NCBI GenBank assembly: GCA_003021015.1
Contig: PXRK01000042.1
Coordinates: forward strand, 1 to 34,749
DNA length: 34,749 bases
From: Halobacteriales archaeon QS_4_66_20
GTDB lineage: Archaea > Halobacteriota > Halobacteria > Halobacteriales > Haloarculaceae
Direction of reading: 5' to 3'
In this document: piece after piece, positions 10,183 through 28,456 of the stretch
Layout of the letters: each line of letters opens with the position of its first letter
Numbering within the stretch: position 1 is the stretch's first letter
Translations under genes and position numbers: made by a program
The notes under the pieces: generated by a model
What the model was told of the DNA's origin: nothing
The model's database searches: none
What the model saw: only the letters and a program-made list of their open reading frames with translations

Positions 10183-11313
10183 TTAGATAGAGCGCTGCTG
10201 AGCTTCGACCTCCTCGCTGACGACGCGGTTCTTGATGGCGTCACCAGTTTCGGGGTCGAAGAGGTGGACGCGTTCGGGCGGGAAGAGCACGTCGAGTGGT
10301 TTGCCAGGGTCGAACACGAGTTCACCAGAGACGCTTGCCGTGTACGTCTGGTCACCGATGTCGATGTACACGTACGAAAGCTCACCCATCGGCTCGACGA
10401 CGCTGACAGTCGTCGGAATCGAGTTGTCGTCGCCGTCGCTCGCGAGTTCGATATCCTCGGGCCGGATACCGAGCACGAGGTCCTGACCAGGCTCGACATC
10501 CCGTTCGACCAGTTCGGGAATCTCGTAGCTGAAGTGGTCGTGTTCGAGCACGCCGTCACGAGCGGTGACGTGCAGGAAGTTCATGCTCGGGCTGCCGATG
10601 AAGCCGGCGACAAACTGGTTCTGTGGCTTGTGATACAGCTCCAGAGGGGTGCCAATCTGCTGGAGCTGTCCGCCGTCGAGCACTGCAATCCGGTCGCCCA
10701 TCGTCATCGCCTCGGTCTGGTCGTGGGTGACGTAGATGGTCGTCACGCCGAGGTCCTGCTGGAGTTCCTGAAGTTCGGTACGCATCTCTGCGCGGAGCTT
10801 GGCATCCAGGTTCGACAGCGGCTCGTCCATCAGGAAAATCTCGGGGTCACGGACGAGCGCGCGCCCGAGCGCGACCCGCTGTTGTTGCCCGCCCGAGAGT
10901 TCCTTTGGCTGGCTATCGAGCAGTTCGCTGATACCCAGCAACTCCGCGGCCCATTCGGCTTTCTCGTGGCGCTCGGCTTTCGAGAGGTCCGTCGTCATCT
11001 TCAGCCCGAACGACATGTTCTTGCGGACACTCATGTGTGGGTACAGGGCGTAGTTCTGGAACACCATCGCCACGCCGCGCTCGACGGGCCGTTTGTGCGT
11101 GACGTCGACGCCGTCTAGTTCTATCGTTCCATGGGTGACCTCTTCGAGGCCCGCAATGCAACGAAGTGTCGTTGATTTCCCGCACCCTGATGGACCGACC
11201 AGTACCAAGAACTCCCCATCCTGAATCGTTATATCGAGGTCTTTGACGGCGACGATGCCGCCGCCGCCCCCCGAGTAGATTTTCGTAAGATCGTTGATTT
11301 CGACAGTTCCCAT
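10183..11313 (-). CDS. ABC transporter ATPase, MalK/UgpC-type (sugar import)
   Basis: This is the cytoplasmic ATPase of a carbohydrate-uptake importer. From the ATG at 11313 it has 376 residues. Walker A GPSGCGKST is at 40-48, the signature LSGGQQQ at 139-145, Walker B IFLMDE at 159-164 and the switch histidine H196. A TOBE-type C-terminal domain (LVLGIRPEDI) marks the MalK/UgpC class. The matching permeases and binding protein lie 5 and 11 kb away in the same island, and no other ATPase is present, so it most likely serves them. A TTAATAAA box at 11355-11362 gives a short leader. The in-frame upstream ATG at 11328 is less likely. The gene marks the left edge of the accessory island. Confidence 0.92.
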   Translation of the reverse strand: MGTVEINDLTKIYSGGGGGIVAVKDLDITIQDGEFLVLVGPSGCGKSTTLRCIAGLEEVTHGTIELDGVDVTHKRPVERGVAMVFQNYALYPHMSVRKNMSFGLKMTTDLSKAERHEKAEWAAELLGISELLDSQPKELSGGQQQRVALGRALVRDPEIFLMDEPLSNLDAKLRAEMRTELQELQQDLGVTTIYVTHDQTEAMTMGDRIAVLDGGQLQQIGTPLELYHKPQNQFVAGFIGSPSMNFLHVTARDGVLEHDHFSYEIPELVERDVEPGQDLVLGIRPEDIELASDGDDNSIPTTVSVVEPMGELSYVYIDIGDQTYTASVSGELVFDPGKPLDVLFPPERVHLFDPETGDAIKNRVVSEEVEAQQRSI

Positions 11314-11382
11314 GGTATTATCTCGCAATCGATGTCTTGGTTTGGAAAGGGCGGTTAATAAAACCCACCCCGGGATAACTCA

Positions 11383-11526
11383 TACTGGTGGCTGTACTTC
11401 GTTTACTCATACTGTCGGACGTAATTTCGTGGAGTCACGCGTCACATTCAGCCGTTCAACCGTGCGAATACAGCCAGGAGAGTGTCACGATGTGACACAG
11501 AGTTACGTCCGACAGTATCACCAGTA
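11383..11526. mobile_element. 33-bp mini-MITE interrupted by a nested MITE, at the GH31 stop codon
   Basis: Outer ends TACTGGTGGCT (11383) and CACCAGTA (to 11526) are flanked by TCA at 11380-11382 and 11527-11529. The right TCA is the TGA stop of the GH31 gene on the minus strand. When the inner element at 11410-11517 and one of its TCA repeats are removed, what remains is a 33-bp unit that matches the uninterrupted copy at 10055-10087. Confidence 0.8.
11410..11517. mobile_element. MITE (108 bp) nested inside the 33-bp element
   Basis: Perfect 15-bp inverted repeats TACTGTCGGACGTAA lie at 11410-11424 and (complement) 11503-11517. TCA direct repeats flank it at 11407-11409 and 11518-11520. 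Subterminal arms GTAACTCTGT and GTAATTTCGT match the arms of the element at 31036. The empty site is visible in the sister copy at 10055, so this is a dated second insertion. Confidence 0.85.
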
Positions 11527-13884
11527 TCAGGCAGCGACGGCAACGACGAGTTCGCTCTCGCTCGTCGTCCACTCGCCAGGGGTGGGTTCCCCGTCAACGC
11601 TCGTCAGTTCCGACCCGTCGATAGAGACTGTCTCGGGGGCCGTGTCGACCGGTATCCGGAACTCACACGTCGGTGCTGTCCCATCGATGGTGATTGCGAC
11701 ATTCTGGCCCTCGTGGCGGACCGACAGGTCGACGAGCGCGTCCTGGCTCTCGTCGTAGTACTGGCCCGTCGCCTCTCCGTCAGCCAGCGGCGCGAACAGT
11801 TCGAGTCGGTCGGGCGGCCCGGCCTGGACTGTCTCACCCGGCTCTCGCTGTGGGATGATACCGCCGGCACGGACGAACAGCGGAATCTGGTCAAGCGGGA
11901 CCGACAGGTCGACTGTCTGCCTGCCGCTGTAGCGCTCCCCACGCCACCAGTCGTGCCAGGTTCCCTCGGGGAGGTAGACCGTCCGGCGTTCGGAGGCGTC
12001 GAACACCGGGGCCACAAGCAGGTCCGGCCCCAGGAGATACTGGTCGTCGATGTCGTGGGTCCGGGGGTCGTCCTGGTAGGAGAGAACGAGTGGGCGGACC
12101 AGCGGGAGGCCAGTGCGTGCAGTCACTGTCGCCTGCGAGTAGAGGTACGGAAGCAGGCGGTAGCGGAGGCGAGCAGTCGACCGGAAGATGTCGGTCGCGC
12201 GGTCGCCAAACGCCCACGGTTCCCGCGGCGTCGTCCCGTGACACCGCGAGTGACTCGACAGCAGGCCGAACTGCGCCCACCGGACGTACAGCTCCTGTGA
12301 TGGCTCGCCGGCGAACCCACCGATGTCGTGGCTCCAGTAGCCGATTCCCGACAGGGACGCACTGAGTCCACCCCTGAGCGCGGCGGCCATACCGTTGAAC
12401 GATGTCTGTGGGTCACCGCCCCAGTGGACCGGGTAGCGCTGGCTGCCCGTCCAACCCGAGCGGCCCCAGACGAACGCCGCCTCGTCGCCCCGCTCCTCCG
12501 CAATCGTCTCGTACACCGTCTTGTTGTACAGGTAGGGGTAGAGGTTGTGTCCTGACTTGCCGGTCTGCCCGTCCGCGAAGACAGCATCTTCCGGGATGTA
12601 CTCGCCGTAGTCCGTCTTGAACGTGTCCACGCCAATGGCCAGCAGGTCGCGGTGTTTGTCCGCCCACCAGTCCGCGGCCTCGGGATTGGTGAAATCGACG
12701 ATTGCCCCCCGGTAGTCTCCCTGACAGAGCCGTTCCAGCAGGTACGGTGAACCGGTGCCGTCTTTCAGGAAGTACTCCTCCTCGACTCCAGTCTCGAACG
12801 CCTCCGTCCCGACGGGGACGTGAGGATGTTCCCACAGCGAGAGGTGGAACCCCTGGTCGTGGAGGCCCTCAATCATCCCCTCCGGCTCCGGGAACTGCTC
12901 GCGGTCCCAGACGAGGTCTGTCGACTTGTACTCACGCATCCAGAACGGGTCGAGATGCAGCACGTCCGCCGGTATCGACTCCTCGCGCAGACGCGACGCG
13001 ATGGACTCCAGTTGCTCGCGGGACTCGTAGCCCAGCCGCGACATCCAGACCCCGAAGCTCCACTTCGGCGGGCGCTCTGGCCGGCCGGTCAACCCGGTGT
13101 AAGTCTGCAGGATATCCTCGAAATCGGGGCCGTAGAAGAACACGAACGAGAGTTCGTCGTCTTCGACACCGATGCTGCCACTGGCAGTCGAGGACGCGCC
13201 GAGGTCGTACCGGACACGACAGGTCGTATCGACCAGCAGCCCGTACCCCCGGGTCGAGAGGTGAAAGGGGACGTTCTTGTACGCGCGACTGCTCTCGGTG
13301 CCGAGTGGCTCGACGTGCCAGGATTCGGCGCGCTGGCCGCGCTTGTCGAACCCGGTGAACGACTCGCCGAGCCCGTACAGTGATTCGCCCGGCTGCAGAC
13401 CGAACGACAGCCCCGTCTCTGTCACTCTGTACGGGCCGTGGTTGATTTCCTCCTCGACGAAGCCCAGCGGGTCGACCCGGTGGTCGCCCCTGACGTCGGT
13501 GTCGCTTCGCTGCTCGCTGAAGACAACATCGTCGTCGTCCTCGACACGAAACGACCAGGCGTCGAGCCCGACGACGATAGTGAGCGCGTCTGTCTCCAGT
13601 CGAAGTTCCGAATCGGACTCGGTCGCATCGATAGTGACCGGTTCCGCAATGCGGTCCTCGAAGAAGGGTGGCTCCTCGTCACGCTCGGTGATGGGCCCCG
13701 CCGCCTCGGGGTTTGCCTGCAGCGAGAAGCGAAACGTCGTCGGCGTGAGAAACTGCAGACAGACGGGAACAGTCCGGTCCGGGCTTCGTGGCGTCTCGAG
13801 TGTCCGGTCGGTCTCACACTCGAAAACGACACCGCTTTCCAGCAGTTCGTACGACCGGACAGCGTCGATACTGGTCCGTTCCAT
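11527..13884 (-). CDS. Glycoside hydrolase family 31, YicI-like alpha-glycosidase
   Basis: This 785-residue retaining alpha-glycosidase has no signal peptide, so it acts inside the cell on imported glycosides. The catalytic nucleophile is D425 in FKTDYGEYIP. The acid/base is D491 in PVHWGGD. Other family landmarks are LDPFWM (311-316), SHDIGGF (518-524) and FGLLSSHSR. These stretches are closest to alpha-xylosidases of the YicI type. GH31 also contains the sulfoquinovosidases (YihQ), but the Arg and Trp that I recall as sulfonate ligands in YihQ are not found at the aligned place, where this protein reads KSTDLVWDREQ. Substrate is therefore open: alpha-xyloside, or a sulfoquinovoside bound in a different way. 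A CTTTATGTG box at 13908-13915 sets the start. The dehydratase gene is divergent from it. The stop codon carries a MITE. Confidence 0.92.
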   Translation of the reverse strand: MERTSIDAVRSYELLESGVVFECETDRTLETPRSPDRTVPVCLQFLTPTTFRFSLQANPEAAGPITERDEEPPFFEDRIAEPVTIDATESDSELRLETDALTIVVGLDAWSFRVEDDDDVVFSEQRSDTDVRGDHRVDPLGFVEEEINHGPYRVTETGLSFGLQPGESLYGLGESFTGFDKRGQRAESWHVEPLGTESSRAYKNVPFHLSTRGYGLLVDTTCRVRYDLGASSTASGSIGVEDDELSFVFFYGPDFEDILQTYTGLTGRPERPPKWSFGVWMSRLGYESREQLESIASRLREESIPADVLHLDPFWMREYKSTDLVWDREQFPEPEGMIEGLHDQGFHLSLWEHPHVPVGTEAFETGVEEEYFLKDGTGSPYLLERLCQGDYRGAIVDFTNPEAADWWADKHRDLLAIGVDTFKTDYGEYIPEDAVFADGQTGKSGHNLYPYLYNKTVYETIAEERGDEAAFVWGRSGWTGSQRYPVHWGGDPQTSFNGMAAALRGGLSASLSGIGYWSHDIGGFAGEPSQELYVRWAQFGLLSSHSRCHGTTPREPWAFGDRATDIFRSTARLRYRLLPYLYSQATVTARTGLPLVRPLVLSYQDDPRTHDIDDQYLLGPDLLVAPVFDASERRTVYLPEGTWHDWWRGERYSGRQTVDLSVPLDQIPLFVRAGGIIPQREPGETVQAGPPDRLELFAPLADGEATGQYYDESQDALVDLSVRHEGQNVAITIDGTAPTCEFRIPVDTAPETVSIDGSELTSVDGEPTPGEWTTSESELVVAVAA

Positions 13885-14040: not shown

Positions 14041-15300
14041 ATGACAGACGAACCAGAGTACCGGATTCCGGCCGGCGGCGGGGTACCGTGGCGGGACATG
14101 GGCGGCGACCACATCAGCAGGCCGCCCGACCGGGACATCGAGATTACGGCCGTCGAGACGATGGCTATCGCAGGCAACTTCACGTGGGGTATCGTCAAAA
14201 TCGAGACCGACACCGAACAGTACGGTATCGGCGAAACCTTCCGTGCGGAGGCAGCGCTGGATATGGCCGAGCGGATGGAACTCGAACTCGTCGGTGAGAA
14301 CCCGCTCGATACGGACCGCATCGTCGAGATGCTCAACCAGCGATACACCGGCTGTGGTCGCATCGGCCAGGCGGCCTTTACTGCCCTCGAGACGGCGTGT
14401 TACGACCTCAAGGGGAAGATGCTCGACGTCCCGGTGTACGAACTGCTCGGCGGGAAGTATCGCGACGAGATTACCATCTACTGTGACACCCACGGCGGCG
14501 AGTCGCTGGGCGAAGCCGAGTCTGCAGCGCCACAGGAGGTGTACACCCCCGAGGGCTACGCCAGGGCGGCCCGCGAGGTCGTCGACGCAGGGTTCGACGC
14601 GCTGAAGTTCGACCTGGACGTGCCGACCCACGAACAGTACGACGAGGCCAACCGCCGCATGGACAACGAGGCCATCGAGCACAAAGTCTCGCTCGTGGAA
14701 GCAGTCCGGGACGAAATCGGCTACGACGTGACCCTCGGGATGGACCTGCACTGGAATTTCACCACGGAGACGGCGATTCGACTGGGCAAGAAACTCGAAC
14801 GGTTCGACCTGGCGTGGCTCGAAGACCCCGTCCCGCCCGAGCGCCTCGACTCCCAGCGCCGGGTCACGCGCGAACTCGACCTTCCCGTGTTGACCGGTGA
14901 GAACCTCGTCACCCCCTCGCAGTTCAACGAATACGCCCGCGAGGGAGCCATGGACATTGCCGCCCCTGACGTCAACAAATGCGGCGGCCTCGGCGAAATG
15001 CGCAAGATTGCGACTATCTGTGACCTCTATGGCATCCCGATTGCCTCGCACAACATCTCCAGTCCCGTCGGAACCGTCGCTGGCGCGCACCTCTCGGCGG
15101 TGATTCCGAACTTCATCGCGATGGAGTATCACTCCCGTGACGTCCCCTGGTGGAACGACTTCGTCGAACGGACTGCCGGGTCGGGACCGATTCTCGACGA
15201 CGGCACCATCCGCGTGCCCGAAGGCCCCGGCCTCGGAGTGGAAATCAACCGTGACCTTGCCCGCGAGTATCTCACTGACGGCTCGGAACTGATTGTGTGA
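14041..15300 (+). CDS. Enolase-superfamily sugar-acid dehydratase (mandelate racemase subgroup)
   Basis: The protein dehydrates an aldonic acid to its 2-keto-3-deoxy derivative, using a Mg2+-stabilised enolate. The 419 residues show an N-terminal capping domain and a barrel with K189 (KFD), metal ligand D235 in the DLH motif with H237, E261 (WLEDPVP), E287 (TGENL) and base H337 (SHNISSPVG). The D-x-H at the third strand is typical of galactonate/gluconate/xylonate dehydratases. Haloarchaeal xylonate dehydratase XacD belongs to the same subgroup. In this island the substrate may be xylonate or, by pathway context, 6-deoxy-6-sulfogluconate. A TATA-like ATCGTTATGC lies about 30 bases before the ATG. 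The gene is divergent from GH31, with the 2-hydroxyacid dehydrogenase downstream. Confidence 0.88.
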   Translation: MTDEPEYRIPAGGGVPWRDMGGDHISRPPDRDIEITAVETMAIAGNFTWGIVKIETDTEQYGIGETFRAEAALDMAERMELELVGENPLDTDRIVEMLNQRYTGCGRIGQAAFTALETACYDLKGKMLDVPVYELLGGKYRDEITIYCDTHGGESLGEAESAAPQEVYTPEGYARAAREVVDAGFDALKFDLDVPTHEQYDEANRRMDNEAIEHKVSLVEAVRDEIGYDVTLGMDLHWNFTTETAIRLGKKLERFDLAWLEDPVPPERLDSQRRVTRELDLPVLTGENLVTPSQFNEYAREGAMDIAAPDVNKCGGLGEMRKIATICDLYGIPIASHNISSPVGTVAGAHLSAVIPNFIAMEYHSRDVPWWNDFVERTAGSGPILDDGTIRVPEGPGLGVEINRDLAREYLTDGSELIV

Positions 15301-15409: not shown

Positions 15410-16378
15410 ATGGCCAACTACACCGTCGTGGTGACCGACCACGACTTCGACGACCTCTCGATAGAGCAGGACATCCTCGATGGCATCGCGGACGTGACCG
15501 CCGTGGCAGACGGCGTCGACGCCGACGACGAGGCAGTCCGCGAGGCCCTCCGGGACGCCGATGGCGTGTTGAACCTGCGCCATGACCTCGACGCGGCGGA
15601 CATTGAGGCAGCAGCGGACTGTCGCATCGTGGCCCGGTACGGCATCGGCGTCGACAACGTCGATATCGAGGCGGCGACGGAACGGGGTATCTACGTGACG
15701 AACGTCCCGGAGTACTGTCTCGAAGAGGTGTCGACGCACACGCTGACGCTGTTGCTCGGACTGCTCCGTGGACTCCCCCAGTACCAGCGCTCAGTCGCGG
15801 CTGGCGAGTGGGAGCGCGAGGCTGCGCCGCCGATGCATCGCCTCTCGACGCGAACAGTCGGCGTCGTCGGGTTCGGCGCAATCGGGCGGACCGTCGCCGA
15901 CAGTCTCGGGTCGCTTGCTGGTGACGTCATCGCCTCGGACCCCTTCGTCGACAGCGAGACGATGGCCGAGCACGGCGTCGAGAAAGTCGAGTTCGAGACG
16001 CTGCTCGACCGGGCCGACGCCGTGACAATCCACTCGCCGCTGACCGACGAAACACGCGGGCTGTTCGACGAGGGCGCGTTCGAGCGGATGCGGGACGACG
16101 CCGTGCTGGTCAACGTCGCCCGCGGCCCAATCGTCGATGTCGACGCCCTGCTGGCCGCACTCGACGCTGGCGAGATCGGCGGTGCCGGACTCGACGTGTT
16201 CCCGACGGAGCCACCGGCCGCCGACCACCCGCTTTGCGACCACGAGCGCGTGCTCGTGACGCCACACGTTGCGTGGTACTCCGAGGAAGCAAACAACGAG
16301 CGCCGTTGGACTGCTGCCGAGAACGTGCGTGCTGCACTCCAGGGGGAAACGCCCGTTGACGTTGTCAACGACGTCTAA
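15410..16378 (+). CDS. D-isomer-specific 2-hydroxyacid dehydrogenase, SlcC-like by context
   Basis: This NAD(P)-dependent dehydrogenase interconverts 2-hydroxy and 2-keto acids. The 322 residues from the ATG at 15410 carry the nucleotide loop GFGAIG at 154-159 and an Asp (D177) after the second strand, which favours NAD. The catalytic set is R238 (ARGP), E267 and H286 (TPHVAWYSEEA). The family includes glyoxylate/hydroxypyruvate reductases, phosphoglycerate dehydrogenase and (S)-sulfolactate dehydrogenase SlcC. Because SuyAB-, ComC- and exporter-like genes lie in the same island, SlcC is my preferred role; a glycolate/glyoxylate or glycerate role is the alternative. The ACTTTTTCTA box at 15379-15388 fixes the start. 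Its TAA stop is the left flank of MITE copy C. Confidence 0.82.
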   Translation: MANYTVVVTDHDFDDLSIEQDILDGIADVTAVADGVDADDEAVREALRDADGVLNLRHDLDAADIEAAADCRIVARYGIGVDNVDIEAATERGIYVTNVPEYCLEEVSTHTLTLLLGLLRGLPQYQRSVAAGEWEREAAPPMHRLSTRTVGVVGFGAIGRTVADSLGSLAGDVIASDPFVDSETMAEHGVEKVEFETLLDRADAVTIHSPLTDETRGLFDEGAFERMRDDAVLVNVARGPIVDVDALLAALDAGEIGGAGLDVFPTEPPAADHPLCDHERVLVTPHVAWYSEEANNERRWTAAENVRAALQGETPVDVVNDV

Positions 16379-16487: not shown

Positions 16488-16532
16488 TGAGAAGCGCAGC
16501 AATGGCGTCAAATAGCGGCTGTAGAGGCAGTT

Positions 16533-17399
16533 TTACTTGCCGATACCTTCCGTCAACCCTTCGATAATCTTGGTCTGGAAGAGCACGAGCAGCAGGATGA
16601 GCGGGACGATGGCCATGAAGACGGCGGCCATGATAGTGCCCCACGGGTTCTGGAACTGGCCGCCGTAGAGTGCGATGCCGACAGTGACAGTGTACATCTT
16701 CTGCTCGCTCATGAAGGTGAGCGCGAACAGGAACTCGTTCCAGGCGAAGATGAACACGATGACCGCCGTCGTCGCCATCGCGGGCGCCGAGACCGGCAGG
16801 ATAATCCGGAACAGGACGCCCAGATGCGTGAGGCCGTCGATACGGCCGGCCTCTTCCAGCGAGTCAGGTAACTCCTTGAAGTACGCCTGGAAGATCCAGA
16901 CGGCAAACGGGAGCTGGAACGCGGTGTAGGGGATGATGAGGCCGAGATAGCTGTTGAGGAAGTTATACTCCAGTGCAAGCTCGAACAGCGGAATCAGGCG
17001 ACCGAAGAAGGGCAACATCGCCGAGACCAGAATCAACATCAGGATGGGGAGCTTGAACCGGAACTCCAGGCGCGCGAGCGCGTAGCCCATCATCGAGCCC
17101 AGCACGACACAGAGAACCGCCGTTCCGGATGCGACGACGAGGCTATTGAACAGATACCGCCCGAGTGGCTGCTGGTCGAACGCGTCCTGGAAGTTCTGAA
17201 GCGTTGGTGACTCCGGGATGTAGGTGACGGGGAACTGGACGACGTCTGCGGGTGGCATCAGCGCGGTCCGGAGAATCCACAGCACGGGGAAAAACGACAC
17301 CAGACACAGCAGGACGATGAGGAAGTAGAAGCCGACTGTCTCACCGAACTGTCTCGATTTCCCCTCCCTGAGTTCCTGAAGGCGGGTACGCACACTCAT
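16533..17399 (-). CDS. ABC sugar transporter permease, MalG type
   Basis: This is an inner-membrane subunit of the carbohydrate importer, with 288 residues and about six membrane helices. The EAA loop that docks the ATPase is EEAGRIDGLTHLGVLFRIILP-like near residue 190. Its ATG follows the stop of the MalF-type gene after one base (TGAGATG), so the two are translationally coupled. By island membership it works with the MalF-type permease, the distant ATPase at 10183 and the binding protein at 22972. The substrate is inferred to be the glycoside processed by the GH31 enzyme. Confidence 0.93.
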   Translation of the reverse strand: MSVRTRLQELREGKSRQFGETVGFYFLIVLLCLVSFFPVLWILRTALMPPADVVQFPVTYIPESPTLQNFQDAFDQQPLGRYLFNSLVVASGTAVLCVVLGSMMGYALARLEFRFKLPILMLILVSAMLPFFGRLIPLFELALEYNFLNSYLGLIIPYTAFQLPFAVWIFQAYFKELPDSLEEAGRIDGLTHLGVLFRIILPVSAPAMATTAVIVFIFAWNEFLFALTFMSEQKMYTVTVGIALYGGQFQNPWGTIMAAVFMAIVPLILLLVLFQTKIIEGLTEGIGK

Positions 17400-20342: not shown

Positions 20343-20657
20343 ATGGGTGATTCCCACATCATCGTCGTCGACTCGACGGACAACCTCGCAACCGCAGTCC
20401 GGACGGTCGACGCTGGCGAAACAGTGACTGTCGACATCGGCGGGACCGAGCGCACGATTACGGTCGGTGACGACATCCCGTTCGGCCACAAAATCGCCCT
20501 GACAGACATCGACGAGGGCGAGACCGTCTACAAGTACGGGAAGAGCATCGGCTACGCGTCGGAGCCAATCGCGGCCGGCGACTGGGTCCACGTCCACAAC
20601 GTCGAGAGCAACTACGGTCGCGGCGACCAGGCTGCCGAACAGACAGCAGACGGATGA
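20343..20657 (+). CDS. suyA: UxaA/SuyA-type small (SAF domain) lyase subunit
   Basis: This 104-residue SAF-domain protein ends in HVHNVESNYGRGD, the conserved signature of the N-terminal part of altronate dehydratase UxaA and of the alpha subunit of (2R)-sulfolactate sulfo-lyase. The DDIPFGHKIALTDIDEGETV stretch is the other family hallmark. It is a separate gene, as in SuyAB, whereas E. coli UxaA is a single chain. The large subunit follows after ten bases. I favour SuyA because an exporter of the SuyZ type lies upstream and a ComC-like dehydrogenase downstream; a split altronate/galactarate-type dehydratase remains possible. Confidence 0.75.
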   Translation: MGDSHIIVVDSTDNLATAVRTVDAGETVTVDIGGTERTITVGDDIPFGHKIALTDIDEGETVYKYGKSIGYASEPIAAGDWVHVHNVESNYGRGDQAAEQTADG

Positions 20658-20667: not shown

Positions 20668-21831
20668 ATGAGTGAGTTCTACGGCTACGAACGAAGCGAC
20701 GGGAGTATCGGCATCAGAAACTTCGTCCCGATTATCGCAACTGCACCGTACGCGAACGATACGGTCAAGCGGGCTGCGGAAATCGTCGACGACGCTATTC
20801 CAATCACCCACCCGCTGGGCCGATGTCAGACCAAACCTGACGTGTTCCAGACCTACCGGACGCTGCTCGGCTACGGCACGCATCCAAACACGTACGGCAC
20901 AGTCGTCGTCGCTCACGCCGGTGAGATTGTCGACGGTGACGAACTCGCGGACGATATCGCGGAGACAGGTCGCCCCAGCGCGAGCGTCAATATCCACCGC
21001 GAGAAAGGCGTGATGAAAGGGCTCGAAGCGACGGTGAACACAGCCCAGGAGATGGTCCAGGACGCAAGCGCGATGCGCCGGGAGCCATTCGATATCTCGC
21101 ATCTCACCTTCGGTATCAACTGTGCCACGTCAGACACCACCAGCGGTCTCTGTCAGCACAAGGCGACCGCCGGTGCAGCCTGGCGGCTCATCGACCAGGG
21201 TGGCCGCGCCGTCTTCGCCGAGACGCCGGAGTTCTTCGGCGGCGAGGATGGGCTTGCAGCCCGCGCGGTCAACGACAAACTGAACCAGGAGATTCTCGAC
21301 CGCGTCGAGAACTGGGACCAGCGGCTCCGGGACACTGGCTACGACGTCCGCGGCGCACAGCCGACCCCGGACAACATGGACGGCGGCCTGACCACCATCG
21401 AGGAGAAAGCGCTGGGTGCACTCGTCAAATCCGGCGACGGCCCCATCCAGGACATCGTCGACTACGGCGAGAAGATTCCCGACGGAAGCGGGATGTACAT
21501 CATGGACACGCCCGGCCACGGTGCCGAGTCAGTCACCGGCATCGGGGCGGGCGGTGCCCACTTCATGGTCATCTCGACCGGTCAGGGCCACACCCTCTCG
21601 AACGCCATCATGCCGACAATCAAGATTACGGGCAACCCCAACAGTGCCGAGCGCGTCCCGGAGGAAACCGACATCGACGTGAGCGACGCACTGGTCGGGG
21701 ACGCCAGCATCGAGTGGGCGACCGACCAGCTCTGGGACGAGGTTATGGAGGTCGCCAACGGCAAACAGACGCTGTCCGAGGTGCTCGGTGAGAGCCAGTT
21801 CGCGATTCACCGCATCGGTCCATCGACCTGA
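20668..21831 (+). CDS. suyB: UxaA/SuyB-type large lyase subunit, putative (2R)-sulfolactate sulfo-lyase
   Basis: This 387-residue catalytic subunit of the UxaA superfamily starts FYGYERSDGSIGIRN. It has the invariant GGLTTIEEKALGALVKSG, and later STGQGHTLSNAIMPTIKITG followed by DIDVS. The TGQG..xN.I.P.IK...NP...DIDVS pattern looks closer to what I recall of SuyB (TGQGN..GNP..PVIKL) than to UxaA (STGRG......PTVK). SuyAB removes sulfite from (R)-sulfolactate, giving pyruvate. Gene order exporter, small subunit, large subunit, LDH2-type dehydrogenase supports this. Several Ile codons are ATT (for example in IPIIATAP), unlike srp54, suggesting a different history from the flanking core genes. 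Alternative: altronate or galactarate dehydratase. Confidence 0.72.
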   Translation: MSEFYGYERSDGSIGIRNFVPIIATAPYANDTVKRAAEIVDDAIPITHPLGRCQTKPDVFQTYRTLLGYGTHPNTYGTVVVAHAGEIVDGDELADDIAETGRPSASVNIHREKGVMKGLEATVNTAQEMVQDASAMRREPFDISHLTFGINCATSDTTSGLCQHKATAGAAWRLIDQGGRAVFAETPEFFGGEDGLAARAVNDKLNQEILDRVENWDQRLRDTGYDVRGAQPTPDNMDGGLTTIEEKALGALVKSGDGPIQDIVDYGEKIPDGSGMYIMDTPGHGAESVTGIGAGGAHFMVISTGQGHTLSNAIMPTIKITGNPNSAERVPEETDIDVSDALVGDASIEWATDQLWDEVMEVANGKQTLSEVLGESQFAIHRIGPST

Positions 21832-21839
21832 GCGTAGTG

Positions 21840-22844
21840 ATGACCGGGACCATCGAAATCGACCGCAGCCGGGCGAAAGCGACCGCACGGGCGGCGTTCG
21901 AACAGTACGGCATCAGTCGCCAGGACGCCGACGTGACCGCGGATATGCTCGTGACGGCACAGGCACGGGGCAAACAGTCACACGGACTGATCCGGCTGTC
22001 CCGGTACGTTCGGGGCATCGAACACGGCAACGTCGACCCGGATGGCAATATCGAGATAGTCCGTGACGCGGGGGCGGCGGCGACAATCGATGGCGGTGCA
22101 CGTCTCGGACCGGCCGTCGCAGTCGAAGCGCTCGGGGAGGCAACCGCCCGTGCCGACCAGAATGGCGTCGGTCTCGTCGGCGTCCACAACAGCACACACC
22201 TCGGCGCGCTCGGCTACTACACCGACCGGGTCCGGCGTGACGGCTACATCTGTCTCGCGATGACCAACACCGAACCGGCGATGCCACCCTACGGCGGTGT
22301 CGAACCGGTGCTCGGGACGAACCCACTCGCGCTCGGCCTCCCGACTGACCCACCGTTCAATCTGGATATGAGCACCGCCGCCATCGCGCGCGGATCGCTC
22401 GAAGAGGCCGCCGAGCGCGGCGAACAGATTCCGGAGGGCGTCGCACTCGACGAGGGCGGCGAGCCGACGACCGACCCGAAAGCTGCCCTCGAAGGCACTA
22501 TCCTCCCGTTCGGGGGGCCAAAGGGGTCGGGCCTTGCAATCGCCATCGAGGTCCTTGCGGGCGGGCTCGTGGGCGCGGCCATGGGCGAGGACGTGACCGG
22601 CACCTACCACACCGAAGACCCCTGTACGAAAGGTGACCTCTTCCTTGTCGTGGACCCGACAGCAGTCGGCGGTGAGGAAACCACAGCACGGATCGAGACG
22701 TTCCTCGAACAACTGACACAGCGGCAATCGGCGGCCGACTCGGAGATTCAACTCCCCGGCGCGTCGTCGCTTCGCAACGAGCGAATCGAAACGATTCACG
22801 TCGACGAGGAGCTCTGGACCGAGATATTGGCGCTGGCCGAGTGA
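21840..22844 (+). CDS. LDH2/malate dehydrogenase-type oxidoreductase, ComC-like (R)-sulfolactate dehydrogenase by context
   Basis: This NAD(P)-dependent 2-hydroxyacid dehydrogenase belongs to the LDH2 family (sulfolactate, ureidoglycolate, diketogulonate dehydrogenases). The 334 residues from the ATG at 21840 show SHGLIRLSRY near 47-56, STHLGALGYY, MPPYGG and the late GPKGSGLAIAIEVLAG block. It follows suyB by eight bases and is clearly in the same operon. In bacteria ComC, with SlcC, inverts sulfolactate through sulfopyruvate so that SuyAB can use it, and both partners are found in this island. A GTG at 21837 directly before the ATG is an equal start. A 17-base tandem repeat covers the stop codon. 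Confidence 0.85.
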   Translation: MTGTIEIDRSRAKATARAAFEQYGISRQDADVTADMLVTAQARGKQSHGLIRLSRYVRGIEHGNVDPDGNIEIVRDAGAAATIDGGARLGPAVAVEALGEATARADQNGVGLVGVHNSTHLGALGYYTDRVRRDGYICLAMTNTEPAMPPYGGVEPVLGTNPLALGLPTDPPFNLDMSTAAIARGSLEEAAERGEQIPEGVALDEGGEPTTDPKAALEGTILPFGGPKGSGLAIAIEVLAGGLVGAAMGEDVTGTYHTEDPCTKGDLFLVVDPTAVGGEETTARIETFLEQLTQRQSAADSEIQLPGASSLRNERIETIHVDEELWTEILALAE

Positions 22845-22928: not shown

Positions 22929-22950
22929 TAACATGCAATGTTAAATGTTA
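22929..22950 (+). promoter_or_regulatory. AT-rich promoter with dyad and tandem repeat before the binding-protein gene
   Basis: The dyad TAACAT-GCA-ATGTTA (22929-22943) is followed by a direct repeat of AATGTTA (22937-22943 and 22944-22950). The second copy acts as the TATA region about 25 bases before the ATG at 22972. The overlap of dyad and core promoter suggests a repressor or activator site. The upstream 22,880-22,928 is unusually AT-rich for this genome. Confidence 0.45.
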
Positions 22951-22971
22951 ACAGTGAGTGAGTCAGAGCGT

Positions 22972-24330
22972 ATGACGGATCGACCACAACACCCCAGTCG
23001 TCGTGAGCTTGTCACTGCGCTTGCAGTCGGGAGTGCAGGCATGCTGGCTGGCTGTATCGGCGGCGACGATGAAGGCGGGAACGGCAACGGAGATGATAAC
23101 GGCAATGGCAATGGCAATGGGAATGGCAACGGGAACGGTAACGGGAACGGCAACGGTGATATGGCGACAGAGGTTTCGTTCACGCATATTTCATCGTTCG
23201 AGCCCGAGGCCGCAGACCTCCAGTCACGGCTGTCAGACGGGGAGGAGGGCATCACGCTCTCGCCGAGTGCGACACCGGCAGAATCCGCATCCACACGGGA
23301 GTACCTGCTGAACCAGTTTGTCGCACAGTCCTCCGAGTTCGACGCGTCGATGATGGACGTGGTCTGGCCGGCAGAGTTCGTCGAAAACGAGTGGATTGCA
23401 CCGGTCGAGGATACGTCGGGCGTGACCGACAACATGCTCGACACCCCGGTCGAGGCCAACAGTATCGACGGCGAGCTGTACGGCATCCCGATGTTCACTG
23501 ACGCGAACGCGTTCTACTACCGCAGTGACAAGCTAGAAGAGTACGGCTTCGAGCCCCCGGAGACGTACATGGAAGTCGTCGAGCAGGCACAGACGATTCT
23601 CGACGAGGACGACGAGATGGAGAACGGGTACATCTGGCAGGGCGGGACGAACGAGGGACTGACTATCATGTGGCTCAACTGGCTGTGGGGCTTCGGTGGA
23701 AGCGTCCAGCAGGGCGACGAACTGGTGGTCAACTCCCAGGAAGGAGTCGATGCGCTCCAGCACGCGGTCGACCTCATCCACGAGTACGAAATCACACCCG
23801 ACAACATCCCGGCGAGTGGGACCGACGGGAACCGCCAGACGTTCCAGAACGGGAACACGCTGTTCATGCGCCAGTGGCCCTACGCGGTCTCGATTTACGA
23901 AGATGACACGCCTGTCACCGGCAAGTTCGACGTCACGACGATGCCGAAGGCAGAGGGTAACGAGGACGCGAACAACTCCTGTCTCGGCGGCTGGAGTATC
24001 CTCATCAACAACTTCTCGGAGAACAAGGAGGCGGCAAACACGCTCGCGAACTACGTCGGCTCCATGGAGGTCCAGGAGATGCTGGCACTCGAGTACAGTC
24101 GGCTCCCAGTCCGCGAGGAACTGTACTCCGAGGAGTACTACGAACAGCAGGGCTCGCTCGAAATCTTCGCAGAGGCGCTCCAGCAGACGAGCGCTCGCCC
24201 GGCGACGCCACAGTACGGCGAGTTCTCCGAAATCGTCTACACGAACTGCAACCAGGCGCTGGTGCAGGAGAAAACCCCACAGGAGGCGCTCGACGACGCT
24301 CAGGAGGACATCGACGCCAACATCAACTGA
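22972..24330 (+). CDS. ABC transporter sugar-binding lipoprotein (Tat-exported)
   Basis: This family 1 extracellular solute-binding protein has 452 residues from the ATG at 22972. The twin-arginine motif is PSRRELV (R10, R11). The lipobox is LAGC with lipidated C28. Residues about 31-62 form an acidic and then Asn-Gly repeat linker (ten NG units) that holds the domain off the membrane. The mature domain contains DGELYGIPMFTDANAFYYRS, typical of maltose/trehalose-type binding proteins. An ATG at 22945 lies inside the promoter and is rejected. It completes the importer with the permeases at 16533-18360 and the ATPase at 10183. The ligand is unknown, presumably an alpha-glycoside such as sulfoquinovosyl glycerol or a xyloside. 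Confidence 0.93.
   Translation: MTDRPQHPSRRELVTALAVGSAGMLAGCIGGDDEGGNGNGDDNGNGNGNGNGNGNGNGNGNGDMATEVSFTHISSFEPEAADLQSRLSDGEEGITLSPSATPAESASTREYLLNQFVAQSSEFDASMMDVVWPAEFVENEWIAPVEDTSGVTDNMLDTPVEANSIDGELYGIPMFTDANAFYYRSDKLEEYGFEPPETYMEVVEQAQTILDEDDEMENGYIWQGGTNEGLTIMWLNWLWGFGGSVQQGDELVVNSQEGVDALQHAVDLIHEYEITPDNIPASGTDGNRQTFQNGNTLFMRQWPYAVSIYEDDTPVTGKFDVTTMPKAEGNEDANNSCLGGWSILINNFSENKEAANTLANYVGSMEVQEMLALEYSRLPVREELYSEEYYEQQGSLEIFAEALQQTSARPATPQYGEFSEIVYTNCNQALVQEKTPQEALDDAQEDIDANIN
23098..23157 (+). repeat. Hexanucleotide AAYGGN repeat (ten units) coding the Asn-Gly linker
   Basis: Ten in-frame AAY-GGN units encode an Asn-Gly tether just behind the lipidated cysteine. Third bases vary between units, but the run could still change length by slippage and so alter tether length. 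Confidence 0.9.
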
Positions 24331-24360: not shown

Positions 24361-24379
24361 GCCCGCTCGACCAGCCTTA

Positions 24380-24937
24380 GTTCTCGAACTCGCTGACGGA
24401 AGTTCGAGGAGCAAGCCCCGCTGTGAACGGCGGGGATGAATCCGACAACTCCGCCACAACCGCCGGAATTAAGCATCCTGACAGCGTATCGTGGGGCAAG
24501 CACAACGGGCAAAAACTGGCGGTTGGATTGGGGTCCGCCCGGACGACGAAGGCCACCAAACCGTTCCCGAGAGGGCGTCTCCGAGGCCGTGGCAACACGG
24601 CAGGCAAAAAGCGACCCTCGCTCGATTGTGCCTGCCCACTGTGGCACGAAGGGCAGGCAGGCCGATGGCACGGCCCGTGCCCGGACGCGGGGAAACCCGC
24701 GACCGGGGGCATTCCCGCCGTCTCTCCGAGACGAACGGGATGCACGGTGCAAGCGGATACCGCGTCTGAATGGACGCCCAACACGCCACACCCCTCGCGG
24801 GGCCGACGTATCGCGCACACACCCGGTATCGCCTCGCCGGACCCCATCCGGCAAGCGAGAAGTTGTCAGCGGGGACGCGGGACCGGCCCGCTGTCCCGCG
24901 CTGGAATCCTCGCCCTTTAGAGCGGGGAGGATGTCAA
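24380..24937. mobile_element. IS200/IS605-type deletion derivative (PATE-like), no tnpA or tnpB
   Basis: About 555 non-coding bases are bounded by subterminal hairpins typical of haloarchaeal IS200/IS605 elements. The left end has CTCGAACT/AGTTCGAG (24383-24408) and CCCCGC/GCGGGG (24416-24435). The right end has GCGGGAC/GTCCCGC (24877-24899) and the ATCCTCGCCC...GGGGAGGAT stem (24906-24932), ending at GTCAA (24933-24937; TTGAC on the other strand). This resembles the tails of tnpB elements and the palindrome-associated elements described in Haloquadratum. No transposase or TnpB fragment is recognisable in the interior. The right end forms the last codons of the aldolase gene. Confidence 0.65.
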
Positions 24938-25804
24938 CTGCTCGAAACAGGCAGTCAGGCGCGCACGCGCATCGTCGGTCAGTTCCGGGAGCGGTGCGAG
25001 CGCGTTGCCGATGTTGTAGCCACGCAGTGAGACCAGATGCTTGATTGCTGGTGCCGTCGGCACGTCCGCCGTCGCGCTGACGACAGGGTGGACGACCGAC
25101 TGCATCACGTTCTGGACCTGTTCGGCGTCGTCGCGGCGGGCGGCTTCGAACATCGCAGAAAGGTGTTCGGGGAAGACGTTCGCCGGGCCGGCGACCATCC
25201 CGTCGGCACCGGCATCGAGCGATGCAGCCGACAGCTGTGTGGCACCCTGGAGCACTGAAAAGTCCGCGGGTGTGCGTTCGATAACGTCATAGAGGTAGGT
25301 GAGATCGCCGGACGTATCCTTGATGCCGACGACGTTCTCGTGGCCGGCCAGGTCGACGACCAGGTCACGCGAGAGTGCCTCTCCGGTCAGGGCCGGAATA
25401 TTGTACAGCACGACTGGTAGCGGTGCGCTGTCGGCGACAGCCTCGAAAAACCGTCGGAGCCCCGACTGTGTCGTACTCAGGTAGTAGGGCGTCACGACGA
25501 CTGCAGCGTCAGCGCCCGCGTCGGCGGCTGCACTCGCATGGTCGAGGACGGCCGTGACGCTCGTGTCTCCACAGCCCGCGAGTACTGACGCGTCCTCGGT
25601 TGTTCGTGCAACTGTCTCGATGACCGTCTCGCGCTGGGCGGCCGTCAGGCTACTGAACTCGCCAATCGACCCACAGGGAAAGAGCCCGTGGACGCCGTGC
25701 TCGACGAGAAACCCAGTGTAGCGTTCGAGTGCATCGGTGTCGATGTCGGGCTGGCTGTCGACTGTCGGCGTCGGCATCGGACAGATTGTACCCTCTATGT
25801 CCAT
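24917..25804 (-). CDS. DapA-family 2-keto-3-deoxy-sugar-acid aldolase
   Basis: This is a class I Schiff-base lyase of the DHDPS/N-acetylneuraminate lyase/KDG aldolase superfamily. The 295 residues from the ATG at 25804 show GSIGE (45-49) and TPYYLS (105-110). The catalytic tyrosine is Y134 in YNIP and the Schiff-base lysine is K162 in GIKDTSGD. Archaeal KDG aldolases share this form. In this island it would split a 2-keto-3-deoxy acid into pyruvate and an aldehyde (sulfolactaldehyde in the sulfosugar model, glycolaldehyde from a pentonate). A dehydratase role, as in L-KDA dehydratase, is the alternative. The last residues TSSPL and the stop are encoded by the end of the IS605-like element, so the original C-terminus was probably replaced. 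It is divergent from the aldehyde dehydrogenase gene, with 88 bases between starts. Confidence 0.88.
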   Translation of the reverse strand: MDIEGTICPMPTPTVDSQPDIDTDALERYTGFLVEHGVHGLFPCGSIGEFSSLTAAQRETVIETVARTTEDASVLAGCGDTSVTAVLDHASAAADAGADAAVVVTPYYLSTTQSGLRRFFEAVADSAPLPVVLYNIPALTGEALSRDLVVDLAGHENVVGIKDTSGDLTYLYDVIERTPADFSVLQGATQLSAASLDAGADGMVAGPANVFPEHLSAMFEAARRDDAEQVQNVMQSVVHPVVSATADVPTAPAIKHLVSLRGYNIGNALAPLPELTDDARARLTACFEQLTSSPL

Positions 25805-25892: not shown

Positions 25893-27359
25893 ATGAGTCC
25901 CACATACCAGACAGTAGCGAAACACGCCGAAATGTTGGTAGACGGCGAGTGGGTCGACGCCGACACACGGCGCGACGTCATCCACCCGTACGACGGCGAA
26001 GTCGTTGGGTCCGTTCCGGTGGCGACACCGGAACAGGTCGAGCAGGCAATCGAGGCTGCCGACCGGGCGGCCGAAGAGACGACTCTCTCTGCCTACGAGC
26101 GGTACGAACTGCTCTACCACGCGGCCGAGCGACTGGAAGAGGAAGCCGAGGAGATGGCCCAGCTAATGACCGCAGAGCAGGGCAAACCAATCACGGAAGC
26201 TCGCGGGGAGGTAGACCGCGCGGTCCAGACGCTGAAACTCTCGGGAGAGGAAGCAAAGCGGATGTTCGGCGAACACGTCCCGATGGACGCCCAGCGGGGG
26301 TACGACCGCACGCACGCGTTCGCCCAGCGCGAACCCCTCGGCGTCGTCGCCGGCATCACTCCGTTCAACTTCCCGCTGAACCTGATGGTCCACAAGGTCG
26401 GACCGGCGCTGGCTGCCGGGAACGCCTTCGTCGGGAAGCCGGCCATCAACACGCCGCTGGTATCGGTCAAACTGTTCGAGCATCTCGACGAGGCCGCCCA
26501 GGAGGTCGGGGCACCCGATGGACTCGTGAATCTCCTCACGGGTCGTGGAAGCACCATCGGCGACATCATCCTCGAAAGCGACGCGGTCGAGGCCATCTCG
26601 TTTACCGGCAGCACGCGCGTCGGCAAGTACCTCGCCAACAACAGCGGGATGAAAGAGCTGACACTCGAACTCGGCGGGAACGACCCGACAATCGTCTGGG
26701 AGGACGCCGACCTCGACGACGCGGCACAGCAGGTCATCGGCGGCGCCTGCTCGAACGGGGGACAGGTGTGCAACAGCGTCGAGCGTGTCCTCGTCCACGA
26801 GACAGTCGAAGACGAGTTCGTCGACGCACTGGTCGAGCACGCCCGCTCGCTCAAAGTTGGCGACCCCTTCGACGAGGAGACCGATATCGCCGCGCTGATT
26901 CACGACGACCAGGCCGAGAAGGTCCAGCGCATCTACGAGGAGACGGTCGAGGCGGGTGCGACCGTCGAGTACGGCGGTGACTCCGACGGCCGCGTGTTCG
27001 AGCCGACGGTGCTATCCGGAGTCACACCGGAGATGCCAGCGGCGAACGAAGAGGTGTTCGGCCCGCTCGTTCCCGTCATTCCGGTGTCCGATTTCGATGG
27101 GGCAATCGACGAGGCAAACAACACCGAGTACGGACTGGAGGCCGGCCTGTTCACCCAGGACATCGACCGCGCGAAGCAGGCTGCCGACCGCATCGATGCC
27201 GGCGGTGTCAACGTCAACACCGTCAGCGGCTTCCGGACCGACCACATGCCCTACGGCGGCTTCAAGGACAGCGGCAAGGGCAAAGAAGGTATCAAATACG
27301 CAGTTGAGCACTTCAGTCGGACGAAACTCGTCGGCTTCCACGCCGGCAAGAACGCGTAA
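25893..27359 (+). CDS. NAD(P)-dependent aldehyde dehydrogenase (lactaldehyde/semialdehyde type)
   Basis: The 488 residues from the ATG at 25893 form a complete aldehyde dehydrogenase. PFNFP (157-161) lies at the nucleotide site, the general base is E259 in ELGGNDP and the nucleophile is C293 in NGGQVCNSVERV. The late block HMPYGGFKDSGKGKEGIKYA resembles archaeal lactaldehyde/glyceraldehyde dehydrogenases and also GabD-like enzymes. It would oxidise the aldehyde made by the divergent aldolase: sulfolactaldehyde to sulfolactate in the sulfosugar model, or glycolaldehyde to glycolate in a pentose model. The upstream in-frame start at 25737 overlaps the aldolase gene and is rejected. The Gfo/Idh gene converges 14 bases after the stop. 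Confidence 0.9.
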   Translation: MSPTYQTVAKHAEMLVDGEWVDADTRRDVIHPYDGEVVGSVPVATPEQVEQAIEAADRAAEETTLSAYERYELLYHAAERLEEEAEEMAQLMTAEQGKPITEARGEVDRAVQTLKLSGEEAKRMFGEHVPMDAQRGYDRTHAFAQREPLGVVAGITPFNFPLNLMVHKVGPALAAGNAFVGKPAINTPLVSVKLFEHLDEAAQEVGAPDGLVNLLTGRGSTIGDIILESDAVEAISFTGSTRVGKYLANNSGMKELTLELGGNDPTIVWEDADLDDAAQQVIGGACSNGGQVCNSVERVLVHETVEDEFVDALVEHARSLKVGDPFDEETDIAALIHDDQAEKVQRIYEETVEAGATVEYGGDSDGRVFEPTVLSGVTPEMPAANEEVFGPLVPVIPVSDFDGAIDEANNTEYGLEAGLFTQDIDRAKQAADRIDAGGVNVNTVSGFRTDHMPYGGFKDSGKGKEGIKYAVEHFSRTKLVGFHAGKNA

Positions 27360-27373
27360 CGCGACAAAAACGC

Positions 27374-28456
27374 TCAGGGAATCGGCTCCCACCCGCCGGA
27401 GGCATCGGATCCGTACACGGCCTCCATCGCCTGCATGTCGACGACACCGTGGTCGCCGTCGGGAAGGATTGATTCCTCGCCCCGGAGCCGGTCTGCGAAG
27501 TAGTCAAACTCCTCGAGCATCTGGTCGACCCGGTCGATAGTTATCGAGGTGCGCGTATCTCCACGCGAGAGGTGTAGCTCACGTGTCCTGTTCTGGAAGA
27601 AGGCCGGCTCGATGCGGATTTCTCCCTCCGTACCAGTGACAGTGATGGCGCTAGACTGGTGGGCGTTGTGACTCGCGAAACAGGAAGCGTACAGTTCGTC
27701 GGGGAACTCGACGGTGAAGGTGACTGCCTCCTCGACCTCGTCGAACGCCTCGTGAGTGCTCTGCGTTCGGCCGGTGACCGCGACTGGGTCGGCGTCGAGC
27801 AGGAACCGGGCAGTGTTCAGCGGGTAGATGCCGATGTCGAACAGCGCGCCACCGCCCGCGAGTTCCTCGTCGAGTCGCCACTGGTCTGTGTCGGGGTTGA
27901 CATGGTCGAACATCACCTGTGACATGTGCCCTCTGACGCTTTCCGGCGTTCCGACGTAGCCGTCTGCGAGTAGCTCCCGAGCACGCCGGACTGCTGGTTC
28001 GGTGTGCATCCGGTACCCGACCATCAGCGCGACACCACTGTCCGCGCAGGTTTCGACGAGTTCGCGTGCCCGCTCGGTCGACCGTTCGAGTGGTTTCTCA
28101 CAGAGCACCGCCTTCCCGAACTCACTGGCGGTCTCCGCGTAGGGCAGATGCAGGGCATTCGGCGTGCAGATGTACACCGCATCGTAGGCGTCGCTGGCAA
28201 CGCCCTCGTGGAACTCGTCGTAGGTGATGCCGTGGTCGGGGGTCTCGAACTCACGTGCAACGCGGTCTGCTTTCTCGCTCGTACTGCTGACCAGCACCGT
28301 CGGCTCGCACCGGTCACTCGCTTCCAGCGCCGGGAGCGCGCGGCCACGCGTAAACCAACCGAGGCCGATGACGGCGAACCGAACGGGCTCGACAGACGAC
28401 GCGTCGACGCTCTCCCAGTCACGACGGGTACATTCCGCCAGTGTCGAAACGTCCAT
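27374..28456 (-). CDS. Gfo/Idh/MocA sugar dehydrogenase (haloarchaeal xylose dehydrogenase type)
   Basis: This 360-residue NAD(P)-dependent oxidoreductase has an N-terminal Rossmann fold (VIGLGWFTRG, with glycines 31 and 33), the EKP motif at 120-122 (CEKPLE) and the C-terminal D-x-G-x-Y block (FDIGIYPLNTARFLLDADP). Sequence layout, including the lead MDVSTL...RRDWES, is like the haloarchaeal D-xylose dehydrogenase that starts oxidative xylose breakdown. Members also oxidise glucose-type sugars, so sulfoquinovose to sulfogluconolactone is possible here. An ATTAT box at about 28,481-28,485 fits a leaderless start at 28456. It is the right-hand end of the island; mutY follows. No lactonase gene is adjacent. 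Confidence 0.87.
   Translation of the reverse strand: MDVSTLAECTRRDWESVDASSVEPVRFAVIGLGWFTRGRALPALEASDRCEPTVLVSSTSEKADRVAREFETPDHGITYDEFHEGVASDAYDAVYICTPNALHLPYAETASEFGKAVLCEKPLERSTERARELVETCADSGVALMVGYRMHTEPAVRRARELLADGYVGTPESVRGHMSQVMFDHVNPDTDQWRLDEELAGGGALFDIGIYPLNTARFLLDADPVAVTGRTQSTHEAFDEVEEAVTFTVEFPDELYASCFASHNAHQSSAITVTGTEGEIRIEPAFFQNRTRELHLSRGDTRTSITIDRVDQMLEEFDYFADRLRGEESILPDGDHGVVDMQAMEAVYGSDASGGWEPIP

Follow-up and report, generated by a model that had tools for sequence, protein, structure and literature searches.

A haloarchaeal gene island that may encode the import and complete catabolism of a sulfosugar

Introduction

Sulfosugars make up a major organic sulfur pool, and haloarchaea are dominant in brines. 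The bacterium Pseudomonas putida excretes sulfolactate, and its sulfosugar pathway is therefore without a lyase tail. Here we describe a gene island of Halobacteriales archaeon QS_4_66_20, located at positions 10183-28456 of contig PXRK01000042.1, whose genes probably serve to take up a 6-deoxy-6-sulfohexose and degrade it completely. The whole contig of 34,749 nucleotides was analysed and is called the window below. The steps given for P. putida SQ1 in the available parts of two papers (PMC12890257, PMC12421959), namely oxidation, dehydration, retro-aldol cleavage and oxidation to sulfolactate, are paralleled by candidate genes of the island. However, the bacterial sulfo-Entner-Doudoroff (sulfo-ED) pathway of this type consists of a short-chain dehydrogenase/reductase (SDR), a lactonase, a PF00920 dehydratase and a PF03328 aldolase, while the island has enzymes of the Gfo/Idh, MR_MLE and DapA families.

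It is important to compare the island with the tandem sulfofucolytic Entner-Doudoroff and sulfolactate sulfolyase pathway of Paracoccus wurundjeri, published in 2025. In the part of that report available to us (PMC12421959), a pathway with an MR_MLE dehydratase is demonstrated and the remaining steps are proposed for homologs of SlcC, ComC and SuyAB. Both systems have clustered homologs of an importer, a sugar dehydrogenase, a PF13378/PF02746 dehydratase, an aldolase, SlcC, ComC, SuyA and SuyB. The P. wurundjeri system, according to the same part of the report, is bacterial, uses a PF13561 (SDR) dehydrogenase and a PF03328 aldolase where the island has Gfo6 and DapA, and includes a lactonase; its exporter is of the TauE type and encoded elsewhere in the genome. 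No sulfofucosidase candidate and no sulfolactaldehyde dehydrogenase are given for it there, whereas the island contains an aldehyde dehydrogenase candidate for the latter step. Sinorhizobium mexicanum is named among the species in the same part of the paper (PMC12421959). At a locus of this species we found tblastn matches to importer parts, SDR, MR_MLE, aldehyde dehydrogenase, SuyA, SuyB, PF03601, SlcC and ComC; its SuyB is 33% identical to that of the island. The MR_MLE proteins share just 27% identity, which suggests that the archaeal set was put together independently. The tandem principle itself has been known in bacteria since 2025, and the island would be an archaeal variant of it, in which the dehydrogenase and the aldolase come from other families.

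According to the available part of a review from January 2026, all known degradation of sulfoquinovose is bacterial, with no archaeal pathway characterised (PMC12890257). In literature searches on sulfosugars and sulfonates in archaea and haloarchaea, no archaeal sulfosugar pathway was found among the titles and beginnings of abstracts listed.

Results

In our reading, to which we give a probability of about 0.72, the genes of the island would take up a 6-deoxy-6-sulfohexose, most likely in the form of glycosides, and degrade it completely; the sugar would be sulfoquinovose, sulfofucose or one closely related to them. This reading draws on gene content, conservation, co-occurrence, the exchange of a three-carbon (C3) tail as one block and the presence of SuyB-type residues; the reactions, their directions and the identity of the sugar are predicted from sequence. 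The tandem layout is found here as in the bacterial system, with a sugar-acid module and a SlcC/ComC/SuyAB module in one cluster. The island holds 14 genes, among them the SuyA small subunit. An earlier note on this DNA had named an importer, a glycosidase, the sugar-acid enzymes, the sulfolactate enzymes and an exporter, and profile searches confirmed each of these families at its position. Gene starts were set by inspection; four were shifted inward by 39-116 codons and that of the ATPase by 5.

The ATP-binding cassette (ABC) importer consists of an ATPase of the MalK/UgpC type (10183..11313, minus strand, recognised by profile matches, start set 5 codons inside the open reading frame), sugar permeases of the MalG type (16533..17399, minus) and the MalF type (17401..18360, minus, start at MATDVSKS), and a sugar solute-binding lipoprotein (22945..24330, plus, with a possible alternative start 9 codons inward). 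Together with the GH31 alpha-glycosidase, a YicI-like protein and candidate sulfoglycosidase (11527..13884, minus), the importer would provide the free sulfosugar. The Gfo/Idh sugar 1-dehydrogenase (27374..28456, minus), which by identity would belong to a distinct subset of haloarchaeal Gfo6, would then oxidise C1. Family profile searches of the island proteins gave no match to a lactonase family, and the lactone could open spontaneously or by an enzyme encoded outside the island. The sugar acid would be dehydrated by the MR_MLE enzyme of the enolase superfamily (14041..15300, plus) and cleaved to pyruvate and sulfolactaldehyde by the DapA-family protein, a candidate 2-keto-3-deoxy-sulfosugar-acid aldolase (24917..25804, minus, start at MDIEGTIC). 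The aldehyde dehydrogenase (25893..27359, plus, start at MSPTYQTV), for which the top NCBIfam model is lactaldehyde dehydrogenase at 559 bits (cut-off 650), is a candidate sulfolactaldehyde dehydrogenase yielding (S)-sulfolactate. The SlcC-like D-2-hydroxyacid dehydrogenase (15410..16378, plus, start at MANYTVVV) and the ComC-like Ldh_2 dehydrogenase (21837..22844, plus) would convert (S)-sulfolactate through sulfopyruvate to (R)-sulfolactate, which the SuyA-like small subunit with its SAF domain (20343..20657, plus) and the SuyB-like large subunit with its GD_AH domains (20668..21831, plus) would split into pyruvate and sulfite. The SuyZ-like protein, assigned by its Pfam family to PF03601/COG2855 (18678..19694, plus), would export the sulfite.

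The conservation of these genes was assessed in a sample of 391 Halobacteria genomes, drawn from a larger group. Relatives of the dehydratase with at least 78% identity occur in 20 of the 391 genomes (own counted), and GH31 relatives with at least 59% identity are found in these 20 and in one more (G304; labels with G and L denote our genomes and loci). The lyase large subunit has relatives of 80-89% identity in 15 genomes (own counted), at 20 places, and all others reach at most 45%. This SuyB clade and the sugar genes occur together in 13 genomes (Fisher p = 1.2e-17, with genomes counted as independent and kinship ignored), which answers the question, raised in the earlier note, whether the gene set is shared with other haloarchaea.

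All 14 genes recur within one plasmid stretch of Haloarcula litorea, and most of them are found in many other haloarchaeal loci; protein identities are 45-89%, depending on the gene, and the order is changed. The island is therefore not a chance assembly. Comparison from locus to locus indicates that gene order shifts and content is largely retained, and the full cluster is held by named strains, for example Haloarcula litorea and Halohasta litorea. Among plasmid records, the best relatives of the dehydratase, GH31 and Gfo6 are all in the same 10 records, and the lyase is present in 8 of these and in 2 further ones. In five genomes of the same genus the lyase, dehydratase and GH31 were not found at the cut-offs used. 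No empty insertion site could be shown in these relatives: the GrpE and MutY homologs are on separate contigs in four, and in the fifth MutY gave no match.

The small SAF subunit of the lyase is separate from the large GD_AH subunit, as in the (R)-sulfolactate sulfo-lyase SuyAB. Two subunits, paired dehydrogenases, a PF03601 exporter and SuyB-type residues are shared with the bacterial SuyAB/SlcC/ComC/SuyZ systems. In contrast, the island lyase, 34-36% identical to the bacterial one, would represent a separate deep haloarchaeal lineage of SuyB. In a quick tree of 120 large-subunit rows, for which the program warned of long branches, the haloarchaeal lyases form a single group of 18 rows with an SH-aLRT value of 100. 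This clade lies outside the haloarchaeal UxaA pairs and the altronate and galactarate dehydratase rows, a grouping that the earlier note had named as the one that would speak against a sulfolactate lyase. It may be the sister of a clade of 79 rows that includes context-backed SuyB proteins (L055-L057), at a nearest-neighbour fork without clear support. The 79 rows (73 bacterial, 6 from other archaea) include 76 collected by sequence pattern, of which 45 have some sulfonate marker nearby and 30 have a ComC homolog together with an SlcC homolog; the name SuyB for the entire clade is therefore inferred.

Five residues, R52, T157, A286, Q306 and E332, which we define in this analysis as SuyB-type and did not take from the literature, are present in all 25 rows (22 distinct) from the haloarchaeal lyase clade. 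In the clade of 79 rows, Q306 is found in all 79, A286 in 77 and E332 in 78. R52 and T157 are informative for the rows found by tblastn only, because both were part of the patterns by which the 76 rows were collected and the comparison would be circular there. The other haloarchaeal UxaA clade has arginine at position 306 in 16/16 rows, with R52 in 2/16 and T157 in 1/16, and among the degenerate second copies of UxaA the counts are 1/16 for Q306, 7/16 for A286 and 1/16 for E332. SuyB of S. mexicanum has all five residues, as does the one from the annotated hpsN/hpsO locus of Cupriavidus pinatubonensis; no more than two of them occur in any of three other UxaA-type pairs. The haloarchaeal UxaA-type loci (L016-L030 and L052) contain a tandem of two large subunits, the second without many residues conserved in the first; in L052 the small subunit is located between the two large ones, with GH28 and DgoD nearby.

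The SuyB clade occupies 12 places inside sugar clusters and 8 elsewhere, and the latter give evidence of their own. In the stretches read, a homolog of PF03601 or TauE is found beside SuyAB at all 8: PF03601 at L034, L040, L044 and L046, TauE at L031, L035 and L036, and both at L039. Three of the places (L034, L044 and L046) are loci of the 2,3-dihydroxypropanesulfonate (DHPS) type, with an HpsN-like second paralog of histidinol dehydrogenase (HisD), an SDR, a TRAP transporter binding protein and an IclR regulator; Pfam identified these genes in L044 and partly in L034, and tblastn the rest. The HpsN-like proteins are 37-41% identical to bacterial HpsN and 41-42% to the remaining HisD-type protein of their own genomes, so that the reading as HpsN follows from the position of second HisD copies beside SuyAB in three genomes and not from identity. 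In genome G386 the DHPS-type locus adjoins the sugar island, and in L036 a SorT-like sulfite dehydrogenase is encoded near SuyAB. Such neighbours point to a sulfonate as the substrate, and they do so without recourse to the sugar genes. With exporter homologs near all 8 copies and DHPS-type genes at three of them, desulfonation of sulfolactate by the predicted SuyAB is well supported.

The best solved relative of the ComC-like protein is 2X06, an L-sulfolactate dehydrogenase, and its top model is the sulfolactate dehydrogenase model NF040650, with the next model at 213 bits. The SlcC-like protein, a putative SlcC, is 34% identical to a candidate from Rhodococcus koreensis that is itself SlcC by inference; the models and structures that it matches best are those of phosphoglycerate dehydrogenases. 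The exporter belongs to the same Pfam family, PF03601, as the product of the exporter gene beside SuyAB in Paracoccus versutus.

All 20 sugar clusters have a C3 tail, and it is of two kinds. Tail A, the set SlcC, ComC and SuyAB of the island, is found in 12 of the 20 genomes with sugar genes, and 8 of these 12 clusters have the PF03601 exporter. Tail B consists of a flavin (FAD)/Fe-S 2-hydroxyacid dehydrogenase similar to YdiJ and a pyridoxal phosphate (PLP) enzyme similar to threonine synthase. It is present in 8 of the 20 genomes (G216, G278, G175, G075, G349, G137, G312 and G247, at loci L148-L154, L158-L163 and L143), in 7 of them without SuyAB and in 6 of these 7 with the PF03601 exporter; the eighth, Natribaculum luteum (G247), has SuyAB and TauE about 10 kb from tail B. 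Tail B came to light among the unmatched open reading frames of clusters lacking SuyAB, which were searched for another desulfonation enzyme.

The division was checked by whole-genome searches of 22 genomes. ComC relatives of 61-68% identity (own at 100%) and SlcC relatives of 58-69% (own counted) are present in the 12 tail-A genomes and in G029, and in none of the 8 tail-B genomes, apart from one 54% SlcC homolog outside the cluster in G312. The PLP enzyme is at least 89% identical in six tail-B genomes and 53% and 49% identical in the clusters of G075 and G312; in tail-A genomes its relatives reach at most 51%. The flavoprotein is informative by position only, since 21 of the 22 genomes have paralogs of it. 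The tail switches at least four times on the trees of the dehydratase and of GH31, which also include rows from named strains. This exchange of a whole block suggests that both tails serve the same end of the C3 sulfonate route. In tail B the FAD/Fe-S protein would act as a D-2-hydroxyacid dehydrogenase giving sulfopyruvate, transamination would give cysteate, and the PLP enzyme would be a cysteate sulfo-lyase.

Residues R301, W304 and Y508 of YihQ, which bind the sulfonate and sit at these positions in the aligned E. coli sequence, are absent from the island GH31, and its reading as a YihQ-type sulfoquinovosidase was rejected for this reason. The nearest solved relatives of the Gfo/Idh protein are aldose-aldose and glucose-fructose oxidoreductases, which lend no support to an NAD-dependent sulfoquinovosidase of family GH188; GH188 itself was not compared. 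Among the 40 best records listed, the relatives of the island Gfo6 are 65-72% identical to it, and the next Gfo6 proteins, from Haloferax and Haloarcula hispanica, 50-54%.

Several further observations concern the window and related loci. Two stretches of about 600 bases, at 19695-20342 before suyA and at 24331-24916 between the binding-protein and aldolase genes, contain no recognised gene and weak repeats only, and Rfam gave nothing at its gathering score across the window, both stretches included. A transposase of the IS1595 type is located at the contig end (window 33833-34723). In G386, three SuyAB copies lie within about 53 kb (contig C1, 697152-750438), in contexts of the DHPS type, the sugar island and the TauE type. 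At L031, L035, L036 and L039, SuyAB and TauE are beside a lyase of the fumarase/ArgH type, a flavoprotein similar to succinate dehydrogenase and its Fe-S subunit, as judged from tested families in L036, annotation in L031, and size and order of open reading frames only in L035 and L039. These loci might serve to turn 3-sulfopropionate into sulfolactate by way of sulfoacrylate, a sulfonate mirror of the succinate-fumarate-malate sequence. MR_MLE dehydratases of 72-73% identity occur with DapA at L146, L147 and L157, and with a 51% SlcC-like protein at L146 and L147. In Thermoplasmata, Thaumarchaeota, Metallosphaera and Sulfolobales (L080, L088, L090 and L095), SuyB proteins of the clade of 79 rows are encoded a few kb from MR_MLE homologs (25-31%), in some cases also with aldehyde dehydrogenase, SDR or ComC homologs. 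These non-halophilic loci are possibly a second archaeal sulfosugar route.

Discussion

The earlier note had proposed that sulfoquinovose is degraded by a sulfo-ED-like route from archaeal enzyme families, joined to sulfolactate desulfonation. Gene content and co-occurrence support the route and its junction. Sulfoquinovose is only one candidate for the substrate, given the YicI-like GH31 with its missing YihQ residues, the lack of a lactonase match in the island and the existence of a sulfofucose pathway with the same dehydratase superfamily (PMC12421959, available part); sulfofucose or another 6-sulfohexose would fit equally. A fuller version of the sulfosugar reading is offered more tentatively, at somewhat less than even odds: a sulfo-ED pathway built from the non-phosphorylative enzyme families of archaea, which would end in either of two interchangeable tails, one of them a cysteate route, would use a new GH31 sulfoglycosidase not of the YihQ type and would be the first archaeal sulfosugar catabolism.

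A number of observations weigh against sulfosugar catabolism. In seven genomes the sugar genes occur without the island SuyB clade, and two genomes (G029 and G206) have this clade and no sugar genes; the tail-A genes of G346 are split over two contigs (L049 and L156). Within the stretches read, 4 of the 12 tail-A clusters showed no exporter. The lyase clade lies outside both the clade of 79 rows with the context-backed SuyB and the haloarchaeal UxaA clade, and the window large subunit is 41-42% identical to the haloarchaeal UxaA clade and 34-36% to bacterial SuyB. The ComC-like protein scores 324 bits with NF040650, below the cut-off of 500. In the alignment with E. coli YihQ the GH31 has gaps at R301, W304 and Y508, and it is nearest to the YicI alpha-xylosidase (448-441 bits for YicI chains, 216 for YihQ). 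Gfo6 passes the NCBI D-xylose 1-dehydrogenase model NF041392, and dehydratase homologs of 72-73% identity are located in clusters where neither SuyAB nor an exporter was seen.

Within the sulfosugar reading, the narrower proposal that the sugar is sulfofucose (6-deoxy-6-sulfogalactose) specifically, and not sulfoquinovose, is rather unlikely, although it is the best of the alternatives. Sulfofucose has one proven pathway, which has a PF13378/PF02746 dehydratase and an ABC importer along with SlcC/ComC/SuyAB homologs, and bacterial sulfo-ED for sulfoquinovose relies on PF00920 instead, according to the available part of the sulfofucose paper (PMC12421959). On the other hand, the low dehydratase identity to the S. 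mexicanum locus weakens this link, and sulfoquinovose is reported in a haloarchaeal glycan, that of the S-layer of Haloferax volcanii (PMC4343526, available part). Such an S-layer glycan is a possible source of sulfoquinovose, and sulfolipids of algae such as Dunaliella, suggested in the earlier note, may be another.

A non-phosphorylative Entner-Doudoroff pathway for a plain hexose appears improbable. It would give glyceraldehyde and glycerate; the SlcC- and ComC-like enzymes would invert glycerate and the SuyAB-like lyase would dehydrate it to pyruvate, while in tail B the flavoprotein would form hydroxypyruvate, to be converted to serine and deaminated by the PLP enzyme. Gfo6, MR_MLE, DapA and aldehyde dehydrogenase are indeed families of archaeal non-phosphorylative routes, and either tail can be read on glycerate. 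However, this leaves unexplained why 8 of 12 tail-A clusters and 6 of 7 clusters with tail B only have a PF03601 exporter, and it does not account for the exporters at the 8 other SuyAB places, the neighbours similar to HpsN and to sulfite dehydrogenase, and the SuyB-type residues.

Still less probable is a D-xylose pathway of the Dahms type that would degrade xylosides through alpha-xylosidase, xylose dehydrogenase, xylonate dehydratase, 2-keto-3-deoxyxylonate aldolase and glycolaldehyde dehydrogenase, and beside which the sulfolactate genes would lie without any functional tie. The GH31 does reach 611 bits with the NCBI alpha-xylosidase model (cut-off 606) and Gfo6 reaches 499 with that of D-xylose 1-dehydrogenase (cut-off 350), and the haloarchaeal oxidative D-xylose pathway (Gfo6, XacD type) has the same dehydrogenase family and dehydratase superfamily. 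However, its proteins form identity sets of relatives separate from those of the island, as the Gfo6 values above indicate, and the island has the aldolase and a C3 tail in addition. The Gfo6, GH31 and dehydratase relatives share the same 10 plasmid records, and the tail is present in all 20 clusters. The NCBI names D-xylose 1-dehydrogenase (27374-28456) and alpha-xylosidase (11527-13884) are probably misleading here.

Degradation of hexuronate and altronate or of galactarate, with the lyase as a sugar-acid dehydratase, can be set aside as very improbable: the Pfam GD_AH domains of the large subunit and the position of its nearest haloarchaeal paralogs (41-42%) near GH28 and DgoD in L052, the single annotated locus examined, would suit it, but the dehydratase reading was rejected by tree position, by residues (A286, Q306 and E332 as in SuyB) and by context, and profile searches of the island proteins gave no match to a uronate gene family.

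If the reading of the island as a sulfosugar pathway is correct, sulfosugar catabolism would extend to the archaea, with sugar genes and a C3 tail in 20 of the 391 sampled haloarchaeal genomes.

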